Source: Clostridia bacterium (GTDB taxonomy: Bacteria; Bacillota; Clostridia; TANB77; CAG-465). From it: DNA of 64,000 nucleotides. Positions 21,515 to 52,902 of the stretch are shown piece by piece; the stretch's first letter is position 1; every line of letters starts with the position of its first letter. The stretch covers positions 124,001 to 188,000 of the forward strand of contig JAFWCU010000001.1 in assembly GCA_017534305.1 (NCBI GenBank), given 5' to 3'. The translations under genes were made by a program, and so were the position numbers. Under the pieces are notes generated by a model that saw only the letters and a program-made list of their open reading frames with translations, did not search any database and was not told where the DNA came from.

Positions 21515-22390
21515 ATGAAAAAAAATAAAGGAAATGTATTAACAATAATTATTTGTATAGTAGTTTTGATTGCAGTATGTGTGGGAGGTTTCTTTTTAAT
21601 AAAACACTTTACTGGAATTCATGTATCACTTAATTCAGATACAAAATTTGATATTACATTTGATACAAAAGCTAATGTAAAAGCAGATGAAACACCAGTT
21701 CCACAAAATTGGAGTGTGTCAATGCCAATATTTATGTATCATTTTATTTTAGATGATTATGGACCATATCCAGATACAGAAAACTTTTTGAAACCAGAAA
21801 CACTAGATGAACAATTAAAATATATTAGTGAAAATGGCTATCAAACTGTATTTATGAATGAGTTTGATAAACTTTACAAGTATGAAAAACCGGTTTGCTT
21901 AACATTTGATGATTGCTTTGTTTATTTTTATAACAACGCATTCCCATTACTTAAAAAATATAACCAAAAAGCAACTATATATGTAATAACAGATTACATT
22001 AATGGAGAAAACTATTTAACTGAAGAGCAAATAAAAGAGATGGATGAGAGTGGACTTGTAGAAATTGCTTCTCATACATGTTCTCATCAATATTTAAATG
22101 AAATGACTAGAGAAGAACAATTACATGAATTAAGAGATTCTAAACAAAGACTTGAAGAAATTGTGGGACATGAGATAACAAATGTTGCATATCCAACAGG
22201 ATTAAATAATGACACTACAGTGGATATTTGTGAAGAGTATTATGAGTTTGGAGTAGAAATGCTTGGGGGCACATACAATTCACTTGTTCATACAGATAAA
22301 TATAGAATCCCAAGAATATATGCAAATAGAACAATGCCACTTGAAACATATATTTCATATCTAGAACAAGCTAAAGTAAGAATTAATTAA
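21515..22390 (+). CDS. Membrane-anchored polysaccharide deacetylase (NodB domain, CE4)
   Basis: 291 residues. One N-terminal membrane helix (residues about 9-30, uncleaved anchor or signal), then an extracytoplasmic NodB domain. The metal and catalytic motifs are present: LTFDDCF (two aspartates, motif 1) and SHTCSHQYL (H-x3-H, motif 2), then VAYPTG (motif 3-like). CE4 enzymes remove N-acetyl groups from cell-wall or exopolysaccharide amino sugars. Start at ATG 21515 after TTTTGGAGG. It ends before a clear promoter for galE, so it is probably the last gene of its unit. Confidence 0.88.
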   Translation: MKKNKGNVLTIIICIVVLIAVCVGGFFLIKHFTGIHVSLNSDTKFDITFDTKANVKADETPVPQNWSVSMPIFMYHFILDDYGPYPDTENFLKPETLDEQLKYISENGYQTVFMNEFDKLYKYEKPVCLTFDDCFVYFYNNAFPLLKKYNQKATIYVITDYINGENYLTEEQIKEMDESGLVEIASHTCSHQYLNEMTREEQLHELRDSKQRLEEIVGHEITNVAYPTGLNNDTTVDICEEYYEFGVEMLGGTYNSLVHTDKYRIPRIYANRTMPLETYISYLEQAKVRIN

Positions 22391-47144: not shown

Positions 47145-47774
47145 TTAATATTTCAATGTTACTTTGTTTCCGTCTCTGGATATAAATCCTTCTTCTTGAA
47201 GAGATTTTAATTCTCTCATCATAGCACTTCTGTCTACACTTAAATAGTCTGCAAGATCGGTATAAGATAGAGGTATTAAAAATGTTCTAGACATTCCAGC
47301 CTTTGTAAGAGTAGTAAAATATGTTTGAAGTTTTTCTCTTATACTTCTTTTTGTTAATAGTTCTATTCTAATGTTTTGAGCCATCGTTTTGTTTAATACT
47401 AGTTTTAGGAGAGAGCTATTTAATACTTCGTGGAATCTACAGCCTCTTGTACATTTTTCTGTAATTTCGTCATAGATGAAATATACAACTTCACATTTAG
47501 ATTTGGCTATTACAAATAGTTCATTATTTGTTGTAACAGGGAAGAATATTTCTCCAAAAACTTCGCCCTCTTTGAGGGTTTCAACTATAGTTTTGTTTCC
47601 GTTTACATCATAACGAACAAGGTCAGCGCTTCCAATTTTTAATATACAAACTTGGTTTCTGTTTTTAATGTATGAAGTTATTGTATCACCTTTTTGAAAT
47701 ATTTTTGTTTGAGCTTTTGCACAACTATTTTGTAATTGTTGTGTAAACTCATGTATGTTAAAATCGCTGTACAA
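47145..47774 (-). CDS. Crp/Fnr family transcription regulator
   Basis: 209 residues on the minus strand. Start at TTG 47774: AAGGAGG lies 8 bases before it, and longer frames put this site inside the gene. The N-terminal half is a cyclic-nucleotide-binding-like beta-roll (IFQKGDTITSYIKNRNQVCIL, LKEGEVFGEIFF). The C-terminal winged helix has PLSYTDLADYLSVDRSAMMRELKSLQEEGFI. Several cysteines (NSC, VCI, KCE, EKCTRGC) could hold an Fe-S cluster or sense redox state, but the spacing is not that of E. coli FNR. It is divergent from nrdD, whose promoter carries a Crp/Fnr-geometry palindrome, so it is the likely activator there. Confidence 0.88.
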   Translation of the reverse strand: MYSDFNIHEFTQQLQNSCAKAQTKIFQKGDTITSYIKNRNQVCILKIGSADLVRYDVNGNKTIVETLKEGEVFGEIFFPVTTNNELFVIAKSKCEVVYFIYDEITEKCTRGCRFHEVLNSSLLKLVLNKTMAQNIRIELLTKRSIREKLQTYFTTLTKAGMSRTFLIPLSYTDLADYLSVDRSAMMRELKSLQEEGFISRDGNKVTLKY

Positions 47775-47917
47775 TCTCAACCCCTCCTTATTGGACATCA
47801 TTATACTATAATTTTTTGAAAAAATAAATACTATTTTTTGTAATAAAAATGATATAAATTTTAAAACCCTTGTGCAGTCTAGCTTTCCGTTCGACAAAAA
47901 AATAAAAAAATATCTTT

Positions 47918-47933
47918 TGTTGCATTTGCAACA
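47918..47933. promoter_or_regulatory. Palindromic operator upstream of nrdD
   Basis: TGTTGCATTTGCAACA, a near-perfect palindrome with the 5-6-5 layout of Crp/Fnr sites (TGTTG-N6-CAACA). The -10 box TATAAT lies at 47954-47959, 20 bases after it, and there is no good -35 box. The centre falls near -40.5 relative to the predicted transcript start, the place where Crp/Fnr proteins activate. The same element, with the same spacing, stands before the second nrdD gene. Confidence 0.8.
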
Positions 47934-47994: not shown

Positions 47995-50187
47995 ATGAAA
48001 GTAATAAAAAGAGATGGAAGAGTTGTAGATTATGATAGAGAAAAAATATCTGTTGCAATTCAAAAAGCAAATAAAGAAGTAAAACCAAAAGAAAGAGCGT
48101 CTAAAGAAGACATTAAAGCTGTTATTGAGTATATTGAGGACTTAGACAAAAAAAGAATGCTAGTTGAGGATATACAAGATATTATTGAAGAACAATTAAT
48201 GGAGCTAGGAAAATATGAACTAGCCAAAAAATATATAGTATATAGATATACTAGAGCATTAGTTAGAAAATCTAATACTACTGACCAAACTATTAAAGAA
48301 TTAATAGAGGGAACAAACGAGTATTGGAATAGCGAAAACTCTAACAAAAATGCTACAGTTATAACTACACAAAGAGATTATCTTGCAGGTATAACTAGTA
48401 CAGATATAACAAGAAGATTTTTACTACCTGAAGATATAGTTAAAGCACATGATGAAGGAATAATTCACTTCCATGATGCAGACTATTTTGCACAAAATGC
48501 ACTTCACAATTGTGAGTTAATAAACTTGGATGATATGTTACAAAATGGAACTATCATAAATGGTGTAATGATTGAAAAACCACACAGATTTATTACTGCT
48601 GCAACAATTGCAACTCAAATTATACTTGCAGTTTCTTCTTCAAGTTATGGTGGTGCTACAGTTTCACTTTCACACTTAGCTCCATTTGTACGTGCAAGTT
48701 ATGAAAAATATTACAAAAAATATAAAGATAGAAAATTCTCAGATGAGGATGCTAAAAAATATGCAGAGCAAGATACTAAAAAAGAAGTTGAAGATGGTGT
48801 TCAAACATTTAACTATCAAGTAAACTCAATGACAAATACTAATGGTCAAGCACCTTTCTTATCTGTTGCTATGTATCTTGGAGAAACAGATGAATACAAA
48901 AAAGAACTTGCTATGATTATAGAAGAATTCTTAAATCAAAGAATTCAAGGATTTAAAAATGAAAAAGGTGTATACATTACTCCTGCTTTCCCAAAACTAC
49001 TTTATGTTTTAGAGGAAGATAACATTCATGAAAACAGCAAATTCTGGTATTTAACAAAACTAGCTGCTAAATGTACAGCTAAGAGAATGGTTCCAGACTA
49101 CATTTCAGAAAAAATGATGAAAAAATTAAAGAAAAATGAAATGGGAGATGGAGAATGTTATCCATGTATGGGATGTAGATCTTTCTTAACTCCAGATAGA
49201 ACAATGAGTCTTGGAAACATAGCTAAAGCTAAAAACTATGTTGAAGGTAAAGGTAAATACTATGGTAGATTTAACCAAGGTGTTGTTACTATTAACCTAC
49301 CAGATGTTGCACTTTCTTCTGATGGAGATATGGATAAATTCTGGAAAATCTTTGATGAAAGACTAGAACTATGTCACAGAGCATTACAATTAAGACATAA
49401 TAGACTTGCTGGTGTAACATCAGATGTTGCTCCAATACTATGGCAACATGGAGCTTTAGCAAGATTAGATAAGGGAGAACCAATTAAAGAATTATTATTA
49501 CATGGTTACTCTACTATATCTTTAGGATATGCAGGTCTTTATGAATGTGTTAAATTTATGACTGGACATTCACATACAGACAATGGTGAAGGAAAAGACT
49601 TTGGTCTTGCAGTAATGCAACATTTAAATGATAAATGTAAAGAATGGAAAGCTGCTGAAGATATAGACTACTCAGTATATGGAACACCAATTGAGTCAAC
49701 TACATATAAATTTGCTAAATGTCTACAAAAGAGATTTGGTAAAGTTGAAGGAATTACAGATAGAGGATATATTACAAACTCTTATCACGTTCCTGTATTT
49801 GAAGAAATTGATGCATTTACTAAGTTAGCACTTGAATCTGAATTCCAACAATTAAGCCCAGGTGGAGCAATTTCTTATATTGAAACTCCAAACCTACAAA
49901 ACAACCTAGAAGCAGTAATTGATGTTATTAAATTCATTTACGATAACATTATGTATGCAGAATTAAATACAAAATCTGACTATTGTCAACAATGTGGTTT
50001 TGATGGAGAAATATTAATAGATGAAAACCTTGAATGGTACTGTCCAAACTGTGGTAATAGAAACCATGATACTTTAAACGTTGCAAGAAGAACTTGTGGT
50101 TACATTGGAAGTAACTTCTGGAATAAAGGAAGAACTCAAGAAATTAAAGAAAGAGTTCTACATATAGATAATAAAGAGGCTAAATAA
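47995..50187 (+). CDS. nrdD: Anaerobic (class III) ribonucleoside-triphosphate reductase
   Basis: 730 residues, normal length. ATP-cone at 1-90 (VIKRDGRVVDYDREKISVAI), then the ten-stranded barrel with C173 (HNCELIN) and the thiyl-radical cysteine C394 in CMGCRSFL, a C-terminal zinc site (YCQQCGFDG ... WYCPNCGNR) and the glycyl-radical loop RRTCGYIGSNFW with the radical glycine at G702. It reduces ribonucleotides to deoxyribonucleotides without oxygen. The activase nrdG overlaps its stop codon by one base. Start ATG 47995 after AGAGGAGG. Regulated, very probably, by the upstream Crp/Fnr-type site. Confidence 0.97.
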   Translation: MKVIKRDGRVVDYDREKISVAIQKANKEVKPKERASKEDIKAVIEYIEDLDKKRMLVEDIQDIIEEQLMELGKYELAKKYIVYRYTRALVRKSNTTDQTIKELIEGTNEYWNSENSNKNATVITTQRDYLAGITSTDITRRFLLPEDIVKAHDEGIIHFHDADYFAQNALHNCELINLDDMLQNGTIINGVMIEKPHRFITAATIATQIILAVSSSSYGGATVSLSHLAPFVRASYEKYYKKYKDRKFSDEDAKKYAEQDTKKEVEDGVQTFNYQVNSMTNTNGQAPFLSVAMYLGETDEYKKELAMIIEEFLNQRIQGFKNEKGVYITPAFPKLLYVLEEDNIHENSKFWYLTKLAAKCTAKRMVPDYISEKMMKKLKKNEMGDGECYPCMGCRSFLTPDRTMSLGNIAKAKNYVEGKGKYYGRFNQGVVTINLPDVALSSDGDMDKFWKIFDERLELCHRALQLRHNRLAGVTSDVAPILWQHGALARLDKGEPIKELLLHGYSTISLGYAGLYECVKFMTGHSHTDNGEGKDFGLAVMQHLNDKCKEWKAAEDIDYSVYGTPIESTTYKFAKCLQKRFGKVEGITDRGYITNSYHVPVFEEIDAFTKLALESEFQQLSPGGAISYIETPNLQNNLEAVIDVIKFIYDNIMYAELNTKSDYCQQCGFDGEILIDENLEWYCPNCGNRNHDTLNVARRTCGYIGSNFWNKGRTQEIKERVLHIDNKEAK

Positions 50188-50702
50188 TGAGATACCATTT
50201 AGTTAGAAAAATGGATATTTCCAATGGCCCTGGAGTTAGAGTTTCAGTATTTATGCAAGGATGTGAATTCCATTGCAAGAATTGTTTTAATCCAGAAACT
50301 TGGTGTTTTGATGGTGGTCAAGAGTTTACAGATGAAAAAATAGATGAAGTAATGAAGCTTTGTGCGCCATCTCACATCAAAGGATTATCTATTCTTGGTG
50401 GTGAACCAATGCATCCAAGAAACATTGAAGCTACAACTAAACTTGCAAAGAAATTTAAAGAATTATATCCAGATAAAAATATTTGGAGTTGGACAGGTTT
50501 TAAAATGGATGAAGATTTAAAAGGTAAAGAAGTGCTAAACTATATAGATGTACTTGTAGATGGTCAATATGTAGATGAATTACATGATCCTACACTTAAA
50601 TGGAGAGGTTCTTCTAACCAAAGAGTAATAGATGTTCAAAAATCATTAAAAGAAAACAAAGTTGTATTACTTGATGGACAAAATTCACATTTTAGTATAT
50701 AA
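50187..50702 (+). CDS. nrdG: Class III ribonucleotide reductase activating protein (radical SAM)
   Basis: 171 residues. The radical-SAM [4Fe-4S] motif is CEFHCKNC (C26, C30, C33), here with CxxxCxxC spacing, preceded by NGPGVRVSVFMQG. GGEPMHPRN and WSWTGF follow as in NrdG. It makes the glycyl radical on NrdD using SAM. The ATG shares its first base with the last base of the nrdD stop (TAATG), so translation is coupled. A strong terminator follows. Confidence 0.95.
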   Translation: MRYHLVRKMDISNGPGVRVSVFMQGCEFHCKNCFNPETWCFDGGQEFTDEKIDEVMKLCAPSHIKGLSILGGEPMHPRNIEATTKLAKKFKELYPDKNIWSWTGFKMDEDLKGKEVLNYIDVLVDGQYVDELHDPTLKWRGSSNQRVIDVQKSLKENKVVLLDGQNSHFSI

Positions 50703-50826: not shown

Positions 50827-50842
50827 TGTTGCATATGCAACA
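50827..50842. promoter_or_regulatory. Palindromic operator upstream of the nrdD paralogue
   Basis: TGTTGCATATGCAACA, a perfect 16-bp palindrome. The -10 box TATAAT is at 50863-50868, again exactly 20 bases downstream, and the flank CAGATTT is shared with the nrdD site. No good -35 box, as expected for an activator-dependent promoter. Confidence 0.85.
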
Positions 50843-50911
50843 GATTTTTAACAAAATTGAAATATAATATAATTGTATGAGTGTAAATTCATACATAGGG
50901 GGAAGATATAG

Positions 50912-52870
50912 ATGAAGGTAATCAAGAGAGACGGAAGAATAGTTGAATACGATAGTGAAAAGATATCTATAGCTATACAAAAAGCAAATAAAGAGGTTAA
51001 GGGTGAGCAAAAAGCTTCTCTTGATGATATTAAAGGAATCATAGATTATATTGAAGACTTAGATAAAAAACGTATCTTAGTTGAAGATATACAAGATATA
51101 ATAGAACAAAAGCTGATGGAAATTGGTAAGTTTGAACTTGCAAAAAAGTATATTGTATATAGATATACTAGAGCATTAGTTAGAAAAGCAAATACTACAG
51201 ATGAATCAATTTTAGGCTTGATTAGAAATGAAAATAAGGAAGTATATGAGGAAAACTTAAATGATAATTTAATGCTTGCCTCAACTCAAAGAAACTATAT
51301 TGCAGGTGAAGTATCAAGAGATTTAACTCGTAGAATACTTCTACCAGAAAAAATATCTAAAGCACATGAAGAAGGTATATTATATTTTCATAATGCAGAT
51401 TATTTTGTTCAACCAATATTTAATTGCAGTTTAATAAATATTGGAGATATGCTAGATAATGGAACTGTAATGAATGGTAAAATGATTGAAACACCAAAAA
51501 GTTTTTTAAGTGCATGTTTAGTTACTACTCAAATAATTGAAGCTGTTGCATGTAATCAATATGGTGGACAGTCTGTAGATTTAATACATCTTGGAAAATA
51601 TTTAAGATATTCTCATGATAAATTTGAAAAAGAGTTAAGAAAAGAATATGGAAAGAAACTATCAGATGAAATGATTGAAGGAATAGTTTCTATGCGTATA
51701 AAATATGAACTGGCATCAGGTATTCAAACAATTCAGTATCAAATTAATACATTGATGACTACTAGTGGTCAATCTCCATTTGTAACTTTATTCTTACATT
51801 TAGATAAAGATGATCCATATATAAAAGAAAATGCAATGATTATTGAAGAAGTATTAAAACAAAGAATTAAAGGAATAAAAGATGAAAAAGGAGAATTTGT
51901 TACTCCAGTTTATCCTAAACTTGTATATGTTTTAGATGAATTTAATAATCTTACTGGTGGTGATTATGATTACTTAACAGAGCTTGCTGTTAAATGCTCA
52001 ATTAATAGAACATATCCAGATTACATTTCTGCAAAGAAAATGAGAGAAAATTACAAAGGTTATGTATTTTCGCCAATGGGTTCAAGAAACTTTTTATCTC
52101 CATATAAAGATAGTAATGGAAATTATAAATGGGAAGGAAGATTTAATCAAGGTGTTGTTAGTATTAACCTTCCTCAAGTAGCTCTTGCTGCAGATAAAGA
52201 TGAAAATAGATTCTTTGAAGAACTAGATAGAAGACTTGAAATATGCTTTGAAGCATTAATGTGTAGACATTATGCACTACTTGGAACTACATCAGATATT
52301 TCACCGGTACATTGGCAATATGGTGCAATTTCAAGACTTGCTAAAGGAGAAAAAATAGATTCACTTCTTAAGAATGGATATTCAACTCTATCTTTAGGAT
52401 ATATAGGTATATATGAAACAACAAAACTAATTAAAGGTGTTTCTCAAGTAGAAAAAGAAGGTCATGATTTTGCAATTAAACTAATGAAAAGGTTAAAAGA
52501 GACTGTAGAAAAATGGAAAGATCAAACAGGAATTGCTTTTACCTTATACGGAACTCCTGCAAAAAGTTTGTGCTATAGATTTGCAAGAATAGATAAAGAA
52601 CTATTTGGTAATATTTCTGGAATAACAGATAAAGGGTATTATACTAATTCTTATCATATTGATGCAGATGAGCATATGAGTATTAAAGATAAATTGTTAT
52701 TTGAAGCAGAATTTCAAAATTTATCTTTAGGTGGTGCTATTGCAAATATAGATATTAAAGAGCAAGATGAAGAAAAATACAAAGATTTAATTAAATTCAT
52801 ATATGAAAATATTCAATATGCTGAATTTAATAATGACGAAAAACAATCAAATGTTAATGAGAAATTTTAA
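50912..52870 (+). CDS. Degenerate NrdD paralogue lacking the glycyl-radical domain
   Basis: 652 residues, similar to nrdD along its length. The ATP-cone is kept (VIKRDGRIVEYDSEKISIAI), as is the first active-site cysteine (C172, FNCSLIN) and the overall barrel. Two key features are gone: the thiyl-radical cysteine of MGCR is serine (S391 in PMGSRNFL), and the protein ends before the zinc site and glycyl-radical loop, finishing FNNDEKQSNVNEKF. It cannot be a reductase by the known mechanism. The frame is intact and under the same palindromic operator as nrdD, so it looks selected. A regulatory subunit or nucleotide-sensing partner of NrdD is possible. Ribosome binding site GGGGGAAG. Confidence 0.9.
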   Translation: MKVIKRDGRIVEYDSEKISIAIQKANKEVKGEQKASLDDIKGIIDYIEDLDKKRILVEDIQDIIEQKLMEIGKFELAKKYIVYRYTRALVRKANTTDESILGLIRNENKEVYEENLNDNLMLASTQRNYIAGEVSRDLTRRILLPEKISKAHEEGILYFHNADYFVQPIFNCSLINIGDMLDNGTVMNGKMIETPKSFLSACLVTTQIIEAVACNQYGGQSVDLIHLGKYLRYSHDKFEKELRKEYGKKLSDEMIEGIVSMRIKYELASGIQTIQYQINTLMTTSGQSPFVTLFLHLDKDDPYIKENAMIIEEVLKQRIKGIKDEKGEFVTPVYPKLVYVLDEFNNLTGGDYDYLTELAVKCSINRTYPDYISAKKMRENYKGYVFSPMGSRNFLSPYKDSNGNYKWEGRFNQGVVSINLPQVALAADKDENRFFEELDRRLEICFEALMCRHYALLGTTSDISPVHWQYGAISRLAKGEKIDSLLKNGYSTLSLGYIGIYETTKLIKGVSQVEKEGHDFAIKLMKRLKETVEKWKDQTGIAFTLYGTPAKSLCYRFARIDKELFGNISGITDKGYYTNSYHIDADEHMSIKDKLLFEAEFQNLSLGGAIANIDIKEQDEEKYKDLIKFIYENIQYAEFNNDEKQSNVNEKF

Positions 52871-52872
52871 TG

Positions 52873-52902
52873 AGTAAGTGAGGAATTTTTTCCTCACTTA
52901 TT
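52873..52902 (+). terminator. Hairpin after the NrdD paralogue
   Basis: 12-bp stem AGTAAGTGAGGA/TCCTCACTTATT (one wobble) but only TTCTTG after it, so termination may be weak. Confidence 0.55.

Follow-up and report, generated by a model that had tools for sequence, protein, structure and literature searches.

The nrdDG locus and its second nrdD-like gene

The DNA analyzed here (the window) is a 64,000-nucleotide stretch of a Clostridia genome, G000 below, and in it a class III ribonucleotide reductase (RNR) locus is followed by a second nrdD-like gene. The features of the locus are as follows.

47145–47897, minus strand: Crp/Fnr-type regulator gene, divergent to nrdD (cNMP_binding and HTH_Crp_2 domains); homologs flank most truncated copies elsewhere
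47918–47933: operator TGTTGCATTTGCAACA upstream of nrdD, a palindrome near-identical to TGTTGCATATGCAACA
47995–50187, plus strand: complete catalytic NrdD, 730 amino acids, "NrdD-A" (open reading frame, profile matches)
50187–50702, plus strand: NrdG activase, 171 amino acids (open reading frame, Pfam)
50827–50842: operator TGTTGCATATGCAACA upstream of the paralog, a perfect 16-bp palindrome
50863–50873, plus strand: possible −10 element TATAATATAAT, read directly off the sequence
50912–52870, plus strand: truncated NrdD paralog, 652 amino acids, without radical machinery (open frame, identity to NrdD, Pfam domains, predicted fold)
50912–51196, plus strand: ATP-cone, residues 1–95 of the paralog, with all mapped nucleotide contacts kept
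52082–52084, plus strand: Ser391 codon at the thiyl-radical Cys position (by alignment; Cys in 100/100 full-length orthologs)
52876–52899, plus strand: terminator-like hairpin directly 3′ of the stop codon, with a perfect 10-bp stem (AAGTGAGGAA/TTCCTCACTT)

The paralog begins 209 bases after the end of nrdG, on the same plus strand. A sequence-only reading of this DNA had described it as NrdD-like along its length, ATP-cone included, and this is borne out by its open frame, by 51% identity to the neighboring NrdD over 661 aligned columns, by Pfam matches to ATP-cone (residues 1–87) and NRDD (residues 115–642, profile positions 2–507 of 562), and by a TIGR02487 score above cut-off. The same reading held that the thiyl-radical Cys is replaced and that the chain stops ahead of the zinc site and glycyl-radical loop, and both points stand: the finger loop CMGCRS of NrdD is PMGSRN here, and the protein ends in NNDEKQSNVNEKF at the point where NrdD continues into CQQCG..CPNCG..RRTCGY, so the two CxxC motifs of the zinc site are absent. 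The Pfam Gly_radical profile matches the neighboring NrdD and has no match in the paralog. A C-terminus hidden downstream by a frameshift was considered and rejected, since the 330 bases 3′ of the stop codon hold no remnant of the zinc site or glycyl loop. Because the Cys and the loop are both missing, the known class III radical chemistry is excluded for this protein.

Other parts of the enzyme are still present in the window copy. These include the second active-site Cys (Cys172, the equivalent of T4 Cys79), the NxN flap (Asn115 and Asn117), and all of the cone contacts K5, R6, K17, Q61, Y80, Y83, R87, and R91, which correspond by alignment to K19, R20, K31, Q79, Y98, Y101, R105, and R109 of Streptococcus thermophilus NrdD (StNrdD; PMC12662201). 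The predicted structure has an intact fold (mean pLDDT 88.5) that superimposes on T4 NrdD (1h7b) with a Z score of 45.9 and a deviation of 1.7 Å over 510 residues.

Origin and distribution of the truncated genes

The closest relatives in other genomes (69–77% identity) are full-length NrdDs of ∼708 amino acids with MGCR and the glycyl loop, two of them in the same genus, and the named matches are from uncultured gut Clostridia. We call this full-length type NrdD-B and the window's catalytic type NrdD-A; by sequence, then, the window gene belongs to the NrdD-B type and is truncated. Of 100 full-length NrdD-B genes, 79 have a Crp/Fnr gene divergent to them and 59 are followed by nrdG, and the sequences place the origin of all truncated copies among such full-length NrdDs, which usually adjoin the divergent regulator.

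The sequence-only reading had proposed a search for NrdD homologs that end before the zinc site, and order-level scans of about 287 sampled genomes found 17 truncated copies, a count that excludes two contig-edge cases (L042 and L132) and two apparent truncations with a C-terminal remnant downstream, indicating a frameshift (L153 and L160). The replacement of the thiyl Cys is not a constant feature of this set, since five of the 17 keep it, and co-location with another complete nrdD is seen in six. Beyond the order, the ∼67 members of the class that gave a match yielded no clear truncated copy; the short frames seen there, few in number, are contig-edge or partial, with G411 left out. Parsimony on a tree from which the finger loop and C-terminal end had been left out assigns the truncated copies to six or more positions, an approximate figure, since the tree was made quickly and some of its branches are long. 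Four separate placements are well supported, those of the window's genus (98), G120 (100, with a full-length copy), G246 (99), and a clade of family f5 (100), which indicates at least four independent origins.

The sequence-only reading would have taken the Cys and glycyl loop in close relatives at this locus as the sign of a strain-specific truncation. Genomes G010 and G013 do carry full-length copies with both features beside the same regulator, but the truncation is not strain-specific, since it is shared by G017 and G004 of the same genus. An assembly error is rejected as well, since these two have the same arrangement with different sequences. A converse variant was also seen: four NrdD-B-like proteins (L100, L101, L102, and L218, in G245, G160, G187, and G282) have matches that start at about residue 80–93 of the query and so have no ATP-cone or a partial one, and the first three of these keep the Cys and glycyl loop.

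Selection and residue retention

The window gene had been read as not simply decaying, with a dN/dS near 1 across homologs as the observation that would speak against this. Between G000 and G017, both with the truncated form, dS is 0.52 and dN/dS is 0.071 (95% bootstrap 0.050–0.095); two full-length pairs give 0.054 and 0.086, and other truncated pairs 0.11–0.19, the value of 0.19 coming from shorter 538-amino-acid forms without the finger loop (L067 and L068, in G135 and G071). Residues 1–200 have a dN/dS of about 0.025. Essential catalytic residues have thus been lost from a gene that is under purifying selection, as in a pseudoenzyme.

These values bear on the reading of the paralog as the relic of a replaced NrdD in slow decay, not yet lost. 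Such decay does occur in some genomes, as the NrdD-B copies of G190 (contig C32) and G186 (contig C28) are truly broken, with several stops or split frames, and the long branches of the truncated copies and the drift of their catalytic sites and C-terminal ends would also fit. Nevertheless, the relic reading is strongly disfavored by ratios of 0.07–0.19 at a dS of 0.5–1.7 accumulated after truncation, in frames that have stayed open over 538–675 codons; the very low ratio in the N-terminal 200 residues and the cone contacts kept through the 17 copies argue against it too, and we regard it as improbable.

Retention across the 17 truncated copies was scored at 345 positions that are invariant in 100 full-length relatives. 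The cone keeps 97% of these and barrel residues 403–500 keep 92%, and retention falls to 65% for the flap region, 61% for the finger loop, and 47% for residues 601–642. Among the cone contacts, K5, R6, Q61, Y80, Y83, and R91 are present in 17/17 copies and K17 and R87 in 16/17, and the specificity-site residue Gln207 is in all 17. The second active-site Cys is kept in eight and each flap Asn in ten, and in three copies a deletion has removed the entire finger loop; both Cys residues and both Asn residues are present in 100/100 full-length proteins. The ten cone and specificity-site contacts tested, which were taken from StNrdD and mapped by alignment (PMC12662201), are conserved above random draws (p = 0.0002), whereas conservation of the catalytic residues is below them (p = 0.027). 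With effector sites kept and catalytic sites drifting, the pattern fits a nucleotide-sensing regulator, and nucleotide sensing, one of the roles first suggested for the protein, appears from residue conservation to be its best-preserved function. Matching between the cone and the resident NrdD-A, for example by gene conversion, was rejected: in cone similarity to NrdD-A the truncated copies do not exceed full-length relatives, and nothing points to special matching.

The high conservation of the barrel might instead reflect a non-radical catalyst, or a protein that binds nucleotides in some new role apart from RNR control. This seems unlikely, as the flap that closes over the substrate is degraded in many copies, and the truncated gene has its operator, and often its location, in common with nrdDG.

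Gene neighborhoods, operators, and NrdR

The gene order in the window's own genus is Crp/Fnr, nrdD-A, nrdG, truncated nrdD-B. In other genomes the truncated gene usually lies beside Crp/Fnr without nrdG; in G173 a different full NrdD and nrdG come next, and the truncated genes of G071 and G135 come after a different NrdD and nrdG pair with the operator upstream of that NrdD. Another complete nrdD adjoins 6/17 truncated genes (from a flank scan plus the window and G017 flanks) vs 0/100 full-length ones (Fisher p = 4e-6, or 0.008 on rough lineage counts), a comparison that is approximate because flank lengths differ between loci.

The paralog was also said to have its own operator, and indeed the 1.6-Mb assembly has no more than three exact TGTTGC-N4-GCAACA sites, of which TGTTGCATATGCAACA is one and TGTTGCATTTGCAACA another; the third (L211:7253–7268, contig C19) precedes an adhE gene, the first of a run of genes which we take, from their sequences and general knowledge, to encode AdhE, pyruvate formate-lyase (PFL), and an activase. 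The third site suggests that the Crp/Fnr factor may have a glycyl-radical-enzyme regulon. A near-match at window position 22183 sits inside a gene and was taken as chance. Across genomes, the operator precedes truncated genes from three families, nrdD-A genes on other contigs (G084, G113, and G045), and the nrdD–nrdG–truncated gene cluster in G135 and G071. Linkage and operator may be in part ancestral leftovers, because full-length copies have both too.

Homologs of the Crp/Fnr regulator have five Cys positions (59, 84, 135, 149, and 153 in the L049 copy) that are Cys in 77–90% of 102 sequences, and a role as an Fe-S or redox sensor is possible. Separately, an NrdD-A-like gene (75% identical; L066:3842–6038, in G121) lies amid phage-like genes and has a frame break ahead of the glycyl loop; it may be that phages carry NrdD-A with them.

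No NrdR (TIGR00244) match over cut-off was found in the 26 genomes with NrdD-A, NrdD-B, or truncated copies (in G000 there is none at E ≤ 0.001), whereas 4/4 same-genus genomes without NrdD-A/B (G001, G002, G008, and G009) have one. The absence of NrdR was rejected as a mark of truncation, as it goes with NrdD-A/B in general. A divergent Crp/Fnr gene is adjacent at 11/17 truncated loci and is in the same cluster in the three own-genus cases. Together with the absence of NrdR, this could mean that dNTPs are sensed by the dead NrdD, which would modulate the divergent regulator and so fill an NrdR-like role in NrdR-less genomes. Full-length NrdD-B genes, however, share the Crp/Fnr neighbor and the lack of NrdR, so both features predate truncation, and the paralog has no recognizable DNA-binding or regulator-binding part; we consider a co-regulator of this kind quite unlikely.

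A split class III RNR in the same genome

Elsewhere in G000 (L086:2498–6082, contig C31) there is a split class III RNR, in which a 753-amino-acid NrdD has MGCR and the zinc site and is without a glycyl loop; the loop RRITGYLVGTLDRFNDGKRAEEQDRVKH is carried by a 90-amino-acid open reading frame (L086:3012–3284, minus strand) that lies between this NrdD and its nrdG and overlaps the latter. The same arrangement is present in G017, G010, G004, and G009, and by profile match also in G003 and G013; G001 has an intact NrdD plus a 93-amino-acid spare protein. The small protein resembles in concept the PFL spare part YfiD/GrcA. The split nrdD locus gave no match in Rfam.

That the window protein might work with a separate glycyl-radical domain had been suggested at the outset, and as half of a two-part enzyme it would borrow that domain in trans. 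The genome does encode a loop protein ahead of another nrdG, and some truncated relatives (G054 and G246) keep both active-site Cys residues. Against this, the main chain of the split enzyme has the thiyl Cys and zinc site and its loop is encoded adjacent, a combination that the paralog, with its Ser and no zinc site, does not have; the loop protein sits beside a different NrdD that is itself without a loop, no stand-alone Gly_radical match accompanies the paralog, and no stand-alone glycyl domain was found in G054. The suggestion is therefore not supported in the case of the window protein, and a two-part enzyme is highly improbable.

A proposed role for the paralog

The same chemistry has been lost several times in related bacteria and the products preserved by selection, a pattern suggesting that a dead enzyme has become a regulator. 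A former full-length NrdD would have lost its glycyl-radical domain and thiyl-radical Cys where another NrdD catalyzes, and would have been retained since it still folds and probably dimerizes. Its cone would bind ATP or dATP and its specificity site a dNTP effector, and it would be expressed with the active nrdDG under the common Crp/Fnr-type operator, most likely tuning class III RNR output by nucleotide levels. That it is a class III RNR pseudoenzyme regulating class III RNR is in our judgment slightly favored, with a mixed assembly as the lead model in this genome.

In the window's genome the paralog would most likely act through mixed dimers, or mixed cone–cone assemblies, with the 51%-identical NrdD, and a mixed dimer is plausible here. 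The cones of S. thermophilus NrdD pair when dATP is bound (PMC12662201), and such pairing would let the paralog hold the flap of NrdD off the active site; the inhibitory partnership with NrdD suggested in the sequence-only reading is possible. A mixed dimer cannot be the general mechanism, as it is doubtful in seven genomes (G054, G068, G070, G120, G173, G071, and G135) whose other NrdD is of a distant type, ∼23–30% identical to the window's NrdD; in G081 no other NrdD was found besides the truncated copy. The main alternative route would be interaction with the Crp/Fnr regulator, which is the more constant neighbor in lineages where the other NrdD is distant. The broader proposition, a recurrent class with at least four independent origins in one gut-Clostridia order, in which NrdDs of NrdR-less lineages shed radical chemistry and became nucleotide-sensing regulators of active class III RNR, we hold at even chances.

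Comparison with known systems

The paralog shares its fold and specificity site with the class III NrdDs of S. thermophilus (9d3x), Prevotella copri (8p23), and T4 (1h78, core), and its cone with the first two only; structural matches to class III NrdD are 21–36% identical. Unlike these catalytic proteins, it has no thiyl Cys, zinc site, or glycyl-radical loop. Aminoacyl radical enzymes, glycyl radical enzyme (GRE) homologs with Ala, Ser, or Thr for Gly (PMC11528403), are likewise noncanonical GRE relatives from metagenome-assembled genomes, but these have both the catalytic Cys and the radical loop and do form radicals, whereas the paralog has no loop domain and has Ser for Cys. SP0239 is a GRE-fold protein without the radical glycine, whose function was unknown in PMC4390871. 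The paralog likewise has a GRE/RNR fold without that glycine. To our knowledge, SP0239 is not known as an NrdD paralog with an ATP-cone.

The inactive betaherpesvirus R1 homologs M45 and UL45 (PMC5469499) are, like the paralog, RNR large-subunit homologs retained after catalysis was lost; they differ in being of class I type, viral, and acting on host signaling. Dead paralogs that activate an enzyme include the trypanosome AdoMetDC prozyme (PMC5201418) and a dead DHS paralog (PMC3663545). As is proposed here, each stands beside an active copy as a possible allosteric partner, but these are eukaryotic proteins with demonstrated heteromers, whereas the partnership of the NrdD paralog is proposed from its sequence. 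Dead paralogs as regulators are thus a known kind, and none was found for class III RNR in the open-access library searched; nor did that library yield a paper on a selected radical-less class III NrdD, although absence there is no proof of novelty.

In the class III RNR papers found, ATP/dATP control lies within one catalytic chain and NrdR is the separate nucleotide sensor. NrdR is an ATP-cone repressor of RNR genes (PMC12176259; PMC9110341), and nucleotide sensing by an ATP-cone without catalysis, shown for NrdR, is what is proposed for the paralog. The two differ in build: NrdR (∼150 amino acids) has an N-terminal Zn-ribbon DNA-binding domain, whereas the paralog has 652 amino acids, a full RNR core, and no Zn-ribbon match. 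Because the origin is repeated, the idea can be tested by comparison as well as by simple biochemistry. If it is true, the selected radical-less NrdD would be a natural protein with allosteric sites separated from catalysis, and a third layer of control beside in-chain allostery and NrdR.
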